A stretch of DNA of 64,000 bases from Polynucleobacter hirudinilacicola (GTDB lineage: Bacteria > Pseudomonadota > Gammaproteobacteria > Burkholderiales > Burkholderiaceae). The DNA lies in the NCBI RefSeq assembly GCF_002192535.1, contig NZ_NAIA01000003.1, positions 403,954 to 467,953 on the forward strand, read 5' to 3'. Below are positions 2,184 to 5,782 of the stretch, piece by piece (the first letter of the stretch is position 1; every line of letters begins with the position of its first letter). The position numbers were made by a program, and so were the translations under genes. The notes under the pieces were generated by a model. The model searched no databases and had not been told where the DNA came from. It was given only the letters and a program-made list of their open reading frames with translations.

Positions 2184-2330
2184 ATGAGTGAAAACAGATC
2201 TATATCTGGGCTTACCGATGCAGAGGCTCAAGAATTCCATGCATTTTATGTGCAAGGTCTTTTAGGGTTTGTTGCTATCGCAGTCGTCGCGCACATACTT
2301 GTATGGGCATGGCGTCCATGGTTCTTTTGA
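2184..2330 (+). CDS. pufB: Light-harvesting 1 (B870) beta polypeptide
   Basis: 48 residues, translated directly from the sequence. It has the typical LH1 beta layout: a polar N-terminus with [18 protein letters not shown], one transmembrane helix, a bacteriochlorophyll-ligating His in [15 protein letters not shown], and the aromatic C-terminus that binds the pigment carbonyl. A second His in EFHAFY is the conserved N-terminal His. LH1 beta pairs with LH1 alpha to form the ring around the reaction centre in the inner membrane. A good Shine-Dalgarno AAGGAG lies at 2170-2175. Unusually, pufA does not follow at once: a gene for a 73-residue protein lies in between. Confidence 0.95.
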
Positions 2331-2379
2331 TGCAGTAGTAAGTACATAGTAAATAGCGCAGCTAAAAGGAGTAGTGAAT

Positions 2380-2601
2380 ATGAAGACCAATACAGATTTA
2401 ATCAATAAAAATGATTTTCAGGACACCATGTCCTTCAAGTTCATTTTCTTAGTTAGTTATGTGGTGATCTTTATCGTTGCCCTCATTTTGGTTGTGTTGC
2501 CTTCCTCTCAGAAAAGTTGGTTATTTTCCGAATCTGACGGTGCATCATTTTTAAAGTCAGTTGAGTCAGGCGTTTACAGCTTTATGTCTTACTTAAATTA
2601 G
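2380..2601 (+). CDS. Small single-helix membrane protein between pufB and pufA
   Basis: 73 residues from ATG 2380, preceded by AAAGGAG (2364-2370) at good spacing; an in-frame GTG at 2374 is less likely. I do not recognise the family. Residues 1-20 are polar, 21-40 form one strongly hydrophobic helix, 41-52 are polar with a Trp, and 54-72 could form a second short amphipathic helix. There is no His in the helix, so it is not an ordinary bacteriochlorophyll-binding alpha or beta antenna chain. The gene ends 10 bases before pufA and has its own Shine-Dalgarno, so it is co-transcribed with puf. The size and layout recall accessory RC-LH1 subunits such as PufX or protein W, but I see no convincing sequence match. 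A ring-gap or assembly role is inference. Confidence 0.8.
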
Positions 2602-2611
2602 GAGAAATATT

Positions 2612-2788
2612 ATGTGGAGAGTATGGAAGTTATACGACCCGTTACGTGCGATGGTTGCACAGGGCGTTTTTCTTTTTGCTTTGGCGGCCATGATTCATCT
2701 CATTTTATTGAGCACAGTTCAATACAAATGGTTGGATGGAATGAGTCAAGAGCAGTACAAAGCAGCAATCTCAGCAGCGAAGAAGTAA
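2612..2788 (+). CDS. pufA: Light-harvesting 1 (B870) alpha polypeptide
   Basis: 58 residues, translated directly. It begins [20 protein letters not shown], the classical LH1 alpha N-terminus (W-K-x-x-DPxR), followed by one membrane helix with the bacteriochlorophyll ligand in [13 protein letters not shown] and a short polar tail ending AAISAAKK. It pairs with PufB in the LH1 ring. Shine-Dalgarno AGGAGA lies at 2600-2605. Downstream lies a strong hairpin before pufL, as in other puf operons where the antenna message must be more abundant than the reaction-centre message. Confidence 0.95.
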
Positions 2789-2802: not shown

Positions 2803-2838
2803 CGTAGACGAATATCTAGAAATAGCCATTCGTCTACG
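2803..2838 (+). promoter_or_regulatory. Intercistronic hairpin between pufA and pufL
   Basis: Perfect 11-bp inverted repeat: CGTAGACGAAT (2803-2813) and ATTCGTCTACG (2828-2838), with a 14-base loop. A second, smaller one follows: TGAGAA (2855-2860) and TTCTCA (2864-2869). There is no T-run, so full termination is unlikely. In Rhodobacter, hairpins at this place protect the pufBA mRNA 3' end and set the excess of LH1 over reaction centre. The same role is likely here from position and structure. Confidence 0.75.
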
Positions 2839-2887: not shown

Positions 2888-3712
2888 ATGGCCATGCTCA
2901 ACTTTGAAAAGAAATACCGCGTTCGCGGTGGAACCCTCATTGGTGGAGATCTTTTTGATTTCTGGGTAGGTCCTTTTTATGTTGGATTTTTTGGTGTAAC
3001 AACCATATTTTTCGCATTCTTAGGTACCGCGATGATTTTATGGGGCACTTCTCAGATGGGAGTCTGGAATATCTGGCAAATCAATATTGCTCCGCCAGAC
3101 CTTAAATATGGACTTGGGGTAGCGCCATTAATGGAGGGCGGATTGTGGCAGCTGATTACCATTTGTGCCTTAGGTGCTTTTGGATCCTGGGCGATGCGCG
3201 AAGTTGAGATCTCACGCAAACTGGGTATGGGCTTACATGTACCGGCTGCTTTTAGTATGGCGATCTTTGCTTACTTCACGCTAGTGGTCATCAGACCTAT
3301 TTTGATGGGTGCATGGCATTTTGGTTTTCCGTATGGAATCCTCAGCCACTTAGATTGGGTGTCGAATACTGGTTATCAGTATCTACACTTTCATTACAAC
3401 CCTGCACATATGATTGCAGTGACATTGTTCTTTACAACAACACTAGCGCTGTCATTGCATGGCGCATTGATTTTGTCATCAACCAATCCTCAACCTGGGC
3501 ATACGGTTAGAACACCAGAGCACGAAGACACATTCTTTAGAGATATTGTGGGTTACTCCGTTGGAACACTGGGTATCCATCGCTTAGGTTTATTTCTAGC
3601 TCTAGCAGCAGTATTTTGGAGCGCAGTATGTATTGTCATTAGCGGACCATTTTGGACTAAAGGATGGCCGGAGTGGTGGACATGGTGGTTGAATTTACCA
3701 ATCTGGGGATAG
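2888..3712 (+). CDS. pufL: Photosynthetic reaction centre L subunit
   Basis: 274 residues, typical for PufL. It starts [20 protein letters not shown], the conserved L N-terminus, and has five membrane helices. His-containing segments [15 protein letters not shown] and [14 protein letters not shown] carry ligands for the accessory and special-pair bacteriochlorophylls and the iron. L and M bind the special pair, bacteriopheophytins, quinones and non-heme iron. Shine-Dalgarno AGGAGC lies just upstream. It follows the intercistronic hairpin and precedes pufM by 28 bases. Confidence 0.97.
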
Positions 3713-3740: not shown

Positions 3741-4742
3741 ATGATGGAATATCAAAACCTATTTACACAAACGCAAGTAACCGGCCCCGCTAGTCATGGC
3801 GTTCCTATTAACGCATACGATATGCGCGAAAGAACTAAAACCATTGGCTTTAGTCATCTCATGGGGCGACTGGGTAATGCACAACTAGGCCCCATCTACC
3901 TTGGGCGCCTTGGTGTCGCATCATTGATGTTTGGTATGACTGCCTTTTTCATTATTGGCATGAATATGCTGGCGCAAGTGAACTGGAATCCACTACAGTT
4001 TGTGAAAAAACTATTCTGGTTATCGCTTGATGCACCGGCCCCTAAATATGGACTGACATTTCCGCCATTGAATGAAGGGGGTTGGTGGTTAATTGTGGGC
4101 TTATTCACCACAATCTCCATTATGTTGTGGTGGTTGCGTACCTTCCGTAGGGCGCAAGCATTGGGAATGGGTACCCACGTACCTTGGGCATTTGCTTCTG
4201 CCATTTGGTTATTTCTAGTACTCGGCTTATTCCGTCCAGTATTGATGGGCAGCTGGAGTGAAGGCGTTCCCTTTGGAATCTTCTCTCACCTAGATTGGAC
4301 ATCTGCTTTATCCATTCGTTATGGAAATCTGTTTTACAACCCATTTCACATGCTCTCAATTGTTTTCCTCTATGGTTCAGTGCTGTTGTTTGCAATGCAC
4401 GGTGCAACCATTCTTGCGGTAAGCCGCTTTGGTGGTGAACGAGAGATTGAACAGATTGTTGATCGCGGAACCGCATCTGAAAGAGCTGCGTTGTTCTGGA
4501 GATGGACGATGGGCTTTAATGCAACCATGGAATCTATCCATCGTTGGGCTTGGTGGTTTGCAGTCTTAACTCCATTGACTGGCGGTATTGGAATCTTGTT
4601 AACCGGTACGGTAGTGGAGAACTGGTATTTATGGGGAGTAAAACACAATATTGCTCCTGCCTATCCAGCGATTTATGGGACTGTAGCTGACCCAGCTTTG
4701 AAAGCACCGGCAGCCCCAGTAGCTAAAGGGGACAAAAAATGA
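3741..4742 (+). CDS. pufM: Photosynthetic reaction centre M subunit
   Basis: 333 residues (332 if the second Met at 3744, better spaced from CGGAG, is used). It has the M-type N-terminus [15 protein letters not shown], five membrane helices, and the motifs [16 protein letters not shown] and [10 protein letters not shown] with pigment and iron ligands. The Ala/Pro/Lys-rich C-terminal extension after about residue 315 lies periplasmic, in keeping with species that carry a bound cytochrome. It overlaps pufC by four bases (ATGA), so the two are translationally coupled. Confidence 0.97.
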
Positions 4743-5782
4743 AAAATTTGACTCATAAAATTTCGATTGCATTGAGTATCTTTGCAATGGTGACATTGAC
4801 GGCCTGCGAAAGACCGCCGATAGACGCAAAGCAAACGGGCTATCGTGGAACTGGTATGGATCAAATCAATAATCCACGTACTGATGAACAGTTAGCCAAG
4901 ATCAATGAGATGCCAGCGGCACTACCTTCATCACCAGATGGTCCAAAGGCAGGGGCGGTCTATAAGAACGTCAAGGTCTTGAATAATCTGAGCGCTGCTC
5001 AATTTAGTACCTTTATGGTTTCTATGACTGCTTGGGTTGCGCCTAATGAGGGTTGTGCTTACTGTCATAACGTTCAAAATTTTGCTGATGACTCGCTTTA
5101 TACCAAAAACGTTGCTAGAAGAATGATTCAGATGAATCAAAGTATTAACGGTAATTGGGGCGATCACGTTAAGACTACCGGGGTAACCTGCTACACCTGT
5201 CACCGTGGCAATAATGTTCCGCAAAACGTTTGGTTTAATCCTGTTGAAAAACGGGGTGGCAATATGTTGGGTAATGCTAATGGTCAAAATGATCCGCAAA
5301 AAACAAATGGCTATTCTTCATTACCGAATCAGCCCTTTGCCAGTTACTTTGTAGCCAATGCTGGTGCCGCTCGCATCATTGGGGATACGGCATTACCTAC
5401 AGGTAACAAAGGATCCTTGCAAAGCACTGAGAATATTTATGGTGTGATGTCACATATGTCCCATTCGCTGGGAGTGAACTGCACCTATTGCCATAACAGT
5501 CGTGCATTTAATAGTTGGGAAGAGAGCACTCCACAACGTATCCAGGCTTGGCAAGGAATTCAGATGCTGAAAGATGTCAATACGACCTTTATCAGTCCTT
5601 TGGCTTCCATATCGCCTGTGCACCGGAAGGGGCCTGATGGTGATGTTGGTAAAGCAAACTGTGCAACTTGTCACCAGGGTGTTAATAAACCACTTTTAGG
5701 CAAGAGTATGTTGCAAGATTACCCATTCTTGGCTCCGAGTAACAACAAGCCAAAAGATGGCAATCAACTTGCTAAGAACTAA
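4739..5782 (+). CDS. pufC: Reaction-centre tetraheme cytochrome c subunit
   Basis: 347 residues. The N-terminus is a lipoprotein signal with lipobox LTAC, lipidated Cys23, so it is anchored to the periplasmic face. Four CxxCH heme motifs are visible: CAYCH (Cys106), CYTCH (Cys151), CTYCH and CATCH, as expected for the tetraheme subunit that re-reduces the photo-oxidised special pair. Methionines in helices ahead of the motifs ([23 protein letters not shown]) are likely axial ligands. It is the last puf gene and is followed by a perfect 11-bp hairpin. Confidence 0.96.

Follow-up and report, generated by a model that had tools for sequence, protein, structure and literature searches.

A gene between pufB and pufA of Polynucleobacter hirudinilacicola encodes a putative pigment-free paralogue of the LH1 beta polypeptide

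Sequence comparison places the ancestry of the 73-residue protein encoded between pufB and pufA of Polynucleobacter hirudinilacicola (gene X, protein X) in the LH1 beta polypeptide, PufB, and the best match is with betas that carry a C-terminal tail. Judged from these alignments, X is a pigment-free PufB paralogue that has kept the tail, while the PufB encoded in the same operon has none. Since X is already known as a transcribed ORF from the transcript data in PMC10037100, it is the ancestry that is new here. Our preferred reading, to which we give a probability of roughly 0.4, is that X serves as an accessory subunit of the LH1 ring, which it perhaps interrupts.

The window, by which we mean the whole stretch of 64,000 nucleotides that was analysed, belongs to a genome of 2.0 Mb and carries the operon in the order bchZ-pufB-X-pufA-pufL-pufM-pufC, with the following features:

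2184..2330, + strand: pufB, LH1 beta, short form (2 residues beyond the last PW)
2364..2371, + strand: Shine-Dalgarno sequence of gene X (AAAAGGAG), a good match 8 bases 5' of the ATG, read from the sequence
2380..2601, + strand: gene X, putative pigment-free LH1-beta paralogue, 73 aa; position-equivalent of ORF2 (Rubrivivax gelatinosus) and ORF74 (Roseateles depolymerans)
2437..2523, + strand: part of gene X (residues 20-48) with homology to the membrane helix of LH1 beta, from profile comparison, with residues counted from the sequence
2542..2595, + strand: C-terminal amphipathic helix of X (residues 55-72), with the near-invariant end V-Y-x-[FL]-M-S-x-L
2612..2788, + strand: pufA, LH1 alpha; its Shine-Dalgarno sequence TAGGAG at 2599-2604 overlaps the stop codon of gene X
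2803..2838, + strand: strong RNA hairpin in the pufA-pufL spacer, where the pufB-X-pufA segment ends on its 3' side (z = -4.25 for 2786-2887)
2888..3712, + strand: pufL
3741..4742, + strand: pufM
4739..5782, + strand: pufC, reaction-centre cytochrome

Gene X extends from an ATG at 2380 to a TAG stop at 2599-2601, giving 73 codons, and an alternative GTG start 6 bases upstream of the ATG would give 75. The preliminary description had reported a gene of 73 residues with its own Shine-Dalgarno sequence between pufB and pufA, and both the coordinates and the signal were confirmed on the sequence. The neighbouring pufB and pufA match Pfam LHC and the NCBIfam models for LH1 beta and alpha. As the stop codon of gene X is part of the pufA Shine-Dalgarno sequence, translational coupling is suggested, and the strong hairpin 3' of pufA places gene X within the antenna part of the operon. 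Three further elements were observed in the surroundings. The sequence GACC-GCAA-GGTC at 2152-2163, 20 bases before the pufB start, forms a hairpin whose loop is of the GNRA type; such hairpins, with stem lengths of 4-6 bases, were present in 68 of 177 unique pufB upstream regions versus 0.5% of shuffled ones, and the element possibly contributes to mRNA stability. A 44-codon ORF at 2057-2191 begins with an ATG that overlaps the stop codon of bchZ and extends into the start of pufB; it gave no match in Pfam and NCBIfam scans and may correspond to ORF1 of Rubrivivax or to a leader of the pufK kind (pufK is among the genes described in PMC5725709). Two further LHC-family genes that form a pair some 12 kb ahead of the window (G000:C3:391366-391616; 35.6 and 31.5 bits, above the cut-off) possibly encode LH2-type polypeptides.

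The preliminary description regarded X as a candidate for an undescribed component, but the ORF has already been published under the names ORF2 and ORF74, with no function assigned. In its treatment of the Rubrivivax gelatinosus puf operon, PMC12817894 places ORF1 upstream of pufB and ORF2, with unknown function, upstream of pufA, and cites Nagashima for the first report of ORF2 in 1994. The same section aligned ORF2 with alpha polypeptides, noted the missing His and judged pufA2 of Gemmatimonadota not to be derived from ORF2 (PMC12817894). For Roseateles depolymerans, the expression data of PMC10037100 describe co-transcription of pufA, pufB and ORF74 on the major puf transcript of 1 kb, the greatest changes under carbon starvation for these three genes, and a decrease to 0.71, 1.09 and 2.34%, respectively, in a sigma factor mutant. 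Homologues of X occupy the positions of ORF2 and ORF74 in three Rubrivivax loci (L131, L132 and L134) and in the Roseateles depolymerans locus L208, and with 74 aa in L131 and L208 they fall into the same size class as X of the window. From position and length, we infer that X is the equivalent of ORF2/ORF74. Our literature search, whose range did not include the original sequence papers on ORF2 and ORF74, returned neither a functional study nor a statement of homology to beta. Another small ORF of Roseateles depolymerans, ORF77, is placed between pufM and pufC by the locus numbers in Table 2 of PMC10037100, a region that in Rhodobacter contains pufX downstream of pufM; a search of L208 did not identify this ORF.

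When a profile of X was compared with the PDB, LH1 beta chains were retrieved (8z81_B, E 1.9e-9; 9m8m_B, 7e-8; 7xxf_B, 7.9e-8), and all matches below E 0.01 in the PDB searches with X were LH1 beta chains, with no X chain among them. The profile alignments compared with hhalign comprised 31 X, 18 tail-bearing betas, 43 short betas, 66 alphas and 19 ORFs in the pufQ position. Against the tail-bearing betas, X reached P 99.5, a score of 109 and an E-value of 3e-22, which, like all hhalign E-values given here, refers to a single comparison and not to a database search. The 69 aligned columns span the membrane helix, the W-[LF]-P-G region and the C-terminal tail, and the membrane part and the tail each match beta alone (1.3e-14 and 2.4e-10). 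Reversed alignments and 100 within-segment shuffles for each of three targets served as controls. With 24.4 (P 42.3) for the best of the 100 column-shuffled controls of the X-beta comparison and 12.5 for the reversed alignment, chance similarity of hydrophobic helices was rejected as an explanation of the match. The comparison with short betas, a set in which some rows begin at an internal Met, gave P 96.9. Although alpha is also a one-helix antenna protein, it was rejected as ancestor of X (P 1.3). The statement in the preliminary description that X has no clear sequence match therefore holds for PufX and protein W but not for LH1 beta.

Scanned alone, X of the window gave no Pfam match at E <= 1, and L200 was the only one of the scanned X proteins that passed the cut-off of Pfam LHC (PF00556; 27.2 versus 23 bits). 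NF040862, the NCBIfam model for LH1 beta, matched 5 of 23 X members with a best E of 0.0022. In a tree of 58 sequences and 75 columns (17 X, 12 pufQ-position ORFs, 18 tail-bearing and 11 short betas), which represents a subset of the available sequences and whose deeper order is unreliable with this number of columns, X was separate from beta except for the G201 copy, which joined a tail-bearing beta, and the pufQ-position ORFs clustered with a support of 100.

The residue that binds bacteriochlorophyll in beta has been lost from X. In the window, X has Val at residue 38 where beta carries this His, and Trp47 of the W-[LF]-P-G region is retained. None of 146 unique X sequences has His at the aligned position, which is occupied by Q in 92, V in 15, L in 9 and other residues in the rest, and 160 of the 161 unique betas show the motif H-x8-W, the remaining one being a broken frame that retains the His; as X and beta were sorted by the best-scoring profile, a His-bearing copy would tend toward the beta class. 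Every ORF observed between a pufB and a pufA fell into the X class. The lack of a His for bacteriochlorophyll, noted at the outset for the single protein, was confirmed. X combines homology to LH1 beta with absence of the bacteriochlorophyll His, which makes it a beta homologue and not an antenna beta.

The strongest conservation in X was found in the tail and not on a helix face. Of the 146 sequences, 145 have V-Y close to the C-terminus, and in the exception, G201, the tail differs. An AlphaFold2 model based on 35 aligned sequences predicts a long helix from residue 5 to 48 and a second helix from 55 to 72 with low confidence (mean pLDDT 64.3, pTM 0.33). The second helix is amphipathic with a moment of 0.42, a value attained by 0.05% of 2000 shuffles. 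Both the moment and the low-confidence model agree with the amphipathic C-terminal helix that the preliminary description had proposed for residues 54-72.

In a sample of 399 genomes from across the order, taken to be Burkholderiales, 46 contained pufL at E <= 1e-60, and X was found in 38 of them, including one weak copy (G201) located where the contig ends and no pufA is visible. Beyond these 46, G422 has pufB-X-pufA and no pufL at E <= 1e-60. The earlier assumption that pufB and pufA usually lie a few bases apart does not apply here, as an ORF between the two genes is common in the order sample and not odd. All 38 X-bearing genomes encode a PufB with just 1-3 residues after the last PW. Among the eight pufL genomes that lack X, five (G179, G401, G431, G328 and G314) encode one PufB each, whose tail extends 27-28 residues beyond the last PW, and three (G218, G337 and G368) have a short PufB together with an ORF in the pufQ position, indicating that a puf operon can manage without X and without a beta tail. 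As far as can be read from the sequences, this distribution suggests that the job of the tail is done by beta in some lineages and by X in others, with three genomes having neither.

Outside the order, X was not detected between pufB and pufA in any of 27 pufL-bearing genomes of a phylum-wide sample (398 genomes, 31 with pufL). Ten of the 27 have a Pfam-PufQ-type ORF, two of these ten having been tested against Pfam, ten have another ORF in the pufQ position and seven have neither, the labels being partly circular because the pufQ-type profiles were built from the loci that they then labelled. A search of titled genome contigs matched 172 stretches, of which 143 encode relatives of X, and 80 loci were kept, among them those of Rubrivivax gelatinosus, R. 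benzoatilyticus and Roseateles depolymerans. The order pufB-X-pufA was found in 78 of the 80 loci and the contigs of the other two start at X; wherever both genes share a contig, X lies downstream of pufB. None of the 80 titles points to a group outside the betaproteobacteria, six of them being vague (e.g. 'uncultured bacterium'). One contig with the title Methylotenera sp. MAG (L189) encodes PufB and PufA identical to those of Roseateles puraquae (L198) and a nearly identical X, and it may therefore be a wrongly binned Roseateles contig.

The homology to beta, the loss of the His, the strict linkage to pufB and pufA, the complementarity between short PufB and beta tail and the ORF74 transcript together lead to our reading of X as a pigment-free subunit of the LH1 ring. 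X would sit in the membrane like beta, with the N-terminus inside and the C-terminus outside, and would pack against alpha or beta as a 'blank' beta without a pigment pair, while its tail would dock on a conserved surface on the periplasmic side of the core. The pigment array would be interrupted at the site of X, which might allow quinone passage or define a ring end; this is the least certain step. The earlier proposal of an accessory subunit of the RC-LH1 core is in part carried over, as it fits the beta homology, the puf linkage, the absence of a pigment ligand and the co-transcription in Roseateles described in the transcript data of PMC10037100. The charge balance of X (mean -0.1 for the N-terminus and +0.6 for the C-terminus in 143 sequences) gives no support to the proposed beta-like topology. 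In addition, the location of gene X amid the antenna genes would favour a high copy number over a single X per ring, which counts against a ring-interrupting subunit, as does the peak of conservation in the tail instead of on a helix face.

Alternatively, X could be a PufQ-type factor that acts outside the finished ring and handles or directs bacteriochlorophyll precursors or holds PufA and PufB during assembly. We consider this doubtful, yet it is a serious alternative because X is related to ORFs in the pufQ position: against 12 such ORFs that lie between bchZ and pufB and fall outside the Pfam PufQ type, X gave P 97.5 and E 8e-12, which favours a PufQ-type factor over a ring subunit. X-bearing loci of the order sample had no pufQ-type match, and the X-less G218, G337 and G368 carry such an ORF. 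PufQ itself is described in the puf-operon section of PMC5725709 as a single-helix protein of 8.7 kDa that sets the bacteriochlorophyll supply and LH levels. However, the score of 109 between X and tail-bearing LH1 beta exceeds that between X and the pufQ-position ORFs (60), the tail of X gave no match when compared alone with the tails of these ORFs (P 2.2), and X is located in the antenna segment and not at the operon start. In no scan did X match Pfam PufQ, and against the Pfam-PufQ-type set it reached only P 13.4. With this value and no match to PF05398, for which the pufQ-position ORFs L248 and L251 score 80.8 and 126.4 bits, canonical PufQ was rejected as a direct match of X on present evidence.

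The stretch from bchZ to pufB, which is the pufQ position, contains a small ORF for a single-helix protein in L219, L227, L228, L240, L241, L243-L245, L247, L258, L259, L264 and L279. Seven of the small pufQ-position ORFs were put to Pfam and none exceeded the PufQ cut-off, the best score being 15.4 bits (L244), and the ORF of L259, which is not an X, had a weak PufX match (E 0.16, 12.1 bits, cut-off 25). As a set, 12 pufQ-position ORFs matched tail-bearing LH1 beta with P 96.6 in the profile comparison. The Pfam-PufQ-type set, which we take to be Rhodobacterales, did not match beta in hhalign (P 0.7). We tentatively suggest, as a possibility rather than a probability, that X and the pufQ-position ORFs, and possibly PufQ, form one family of 'blank' proteins derived from LH1 beta that build or open the LH1 ring and feed pigment to it. 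If so, the tail-bearing beta would have been replaced in this order by a split arrangement of a short PufB, with pigment and without tail, and X, with tail and without pigment. The P 0.7 against beta and the C-terminus of PufQ, predicted on the cytoplasmic side in the account of PMC5725709, argue against membership of PufQ itself in this family.

A further alternative is that X resembles the gamma polypeptides and fills, in many copies per ring, the places between beta helices, sealing pores or stabilising the ring while the pigment array stays uninterrupted. X shares an mRNA segment with pufB and pufA that is bounded by the pufA-pufL hairpin, and ORF74 is carried on the major 1-kb puf transcript (PMC10037100, transcript data), so that antenna-like amounts would be allowed. 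A precedent is found in the core complex of Rhodopila globiformis, where, according to the structural summary in PMC9640540, 11 gamma-like helices between the betas block 11 of 16 pores. We nevertheless regard this alternative as improbable, because a protein homologous to beta would be expected at a beta site sooner than between betas and because the between-beta polypeptide of Rhodopila runs the opposite way (PMC9640540, same summary).

Within the genus, homologues of gene X at E <= 1.3e-8 were present in 55 of 151 genomes, all of them among the 61 genomes with pufM, and in the six other pufM-positive genomes (G028, G062, G092, G102, G110 and G136) the contig ends before pufB. The next weaker matches were the second piece of a broken gene in G118 (1.1e-4) and a match at 0.023. 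Gene X lies between pufB and pufA in all 55 checkable genomes, with one copy broken: in G118 (L093), the frame is interrupted near a T run, which may be a real change or a sequencing error. Conservation in the puf operons of related phototrophs, which the preliminary description had named as a test of its own proposal, was thus observed. Gene X is under purifying selection, with dN/dS of 0.09-0.26 against 14 relatives and a median of 0.17 and a maximum of 0.62 over 652 pairs with dS 0.1-1.5, a set into which some genomes enter more than once. Homologues in the genus and these ratios mark gene X as more than an ORF arising by chance. If X were a beta duplicate in decay, or a translational spacer with a protein of no function, this would account for the lost ligand that defines beta and for the broken frame in G118, but this reading is very improbable in view of the dN/dS values, the near-invariant C-terminus and the occurrence of X in every one of the 55 phototrophs of the genus that could be checked.

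Quinone exit from a closed LH1 ring and the determinants of ring size have been elucidated for lineages that possess PufX, protein W or gamma-like polypeptides. As the PDB searches find LH1 betas and no X, the core complex of the bacteria considered here may hold a part that has not been seen so far. A pigment-free beta leads to a direct structural prediction, and its presence in most sampled puf operons of the order corresponds to a named and deletable gene in the cultured Rubrivivax and Roseateles. The ORF known since 1994 (as cited in PMC12817894) now has an ancestry, which by our comparisons is beta and not alpha. Our results further raise the testable idea that the proteins encoded in the pufQ position share beta ancestry.

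PufX is not known to bind pigment. Like X, PufX of Rhodobacter has one membrane helix, as stated in the comparison of accessory subunits in PMC7806223, but pufX follows pufM (operon description in PMC5725709), whereas X lies between pufB and pufA and is homologous to beta; PufX was rejected as a relative, as the scans of X gave no match to Pfam PF11511. Protein W of Rhodopseudomonas palustris is an accessory protein that interrupts the LH1 ring (PMC7806223, same comparison), as we propose for X. It has three membrane helices (PMC7806223), in contrast to the one membrane helix and short C-terminal helix in the low-confidence model of X, and was rejected as a relative on this ground. PufQ, the pufQ-position ORFs and X are all small single-helix proteins of the puf operon, and they differ in place, with PufQ encoded between bchZ and pufB and X downstream of pufB. 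For ORF2 and ORF74, the passages of the published accounts that concern them (PMC12817894, PMC10037100) give neither a function nor homology to beta, whereas X is tied here to beta. Most LH1 betas have an N-terminal S-G-L-T motif that the aligned X sequences lack, and tail-bearing LH1 beta and X have in common the membrane helix, the W-[LF]-P-G region and the C-terminal tail.
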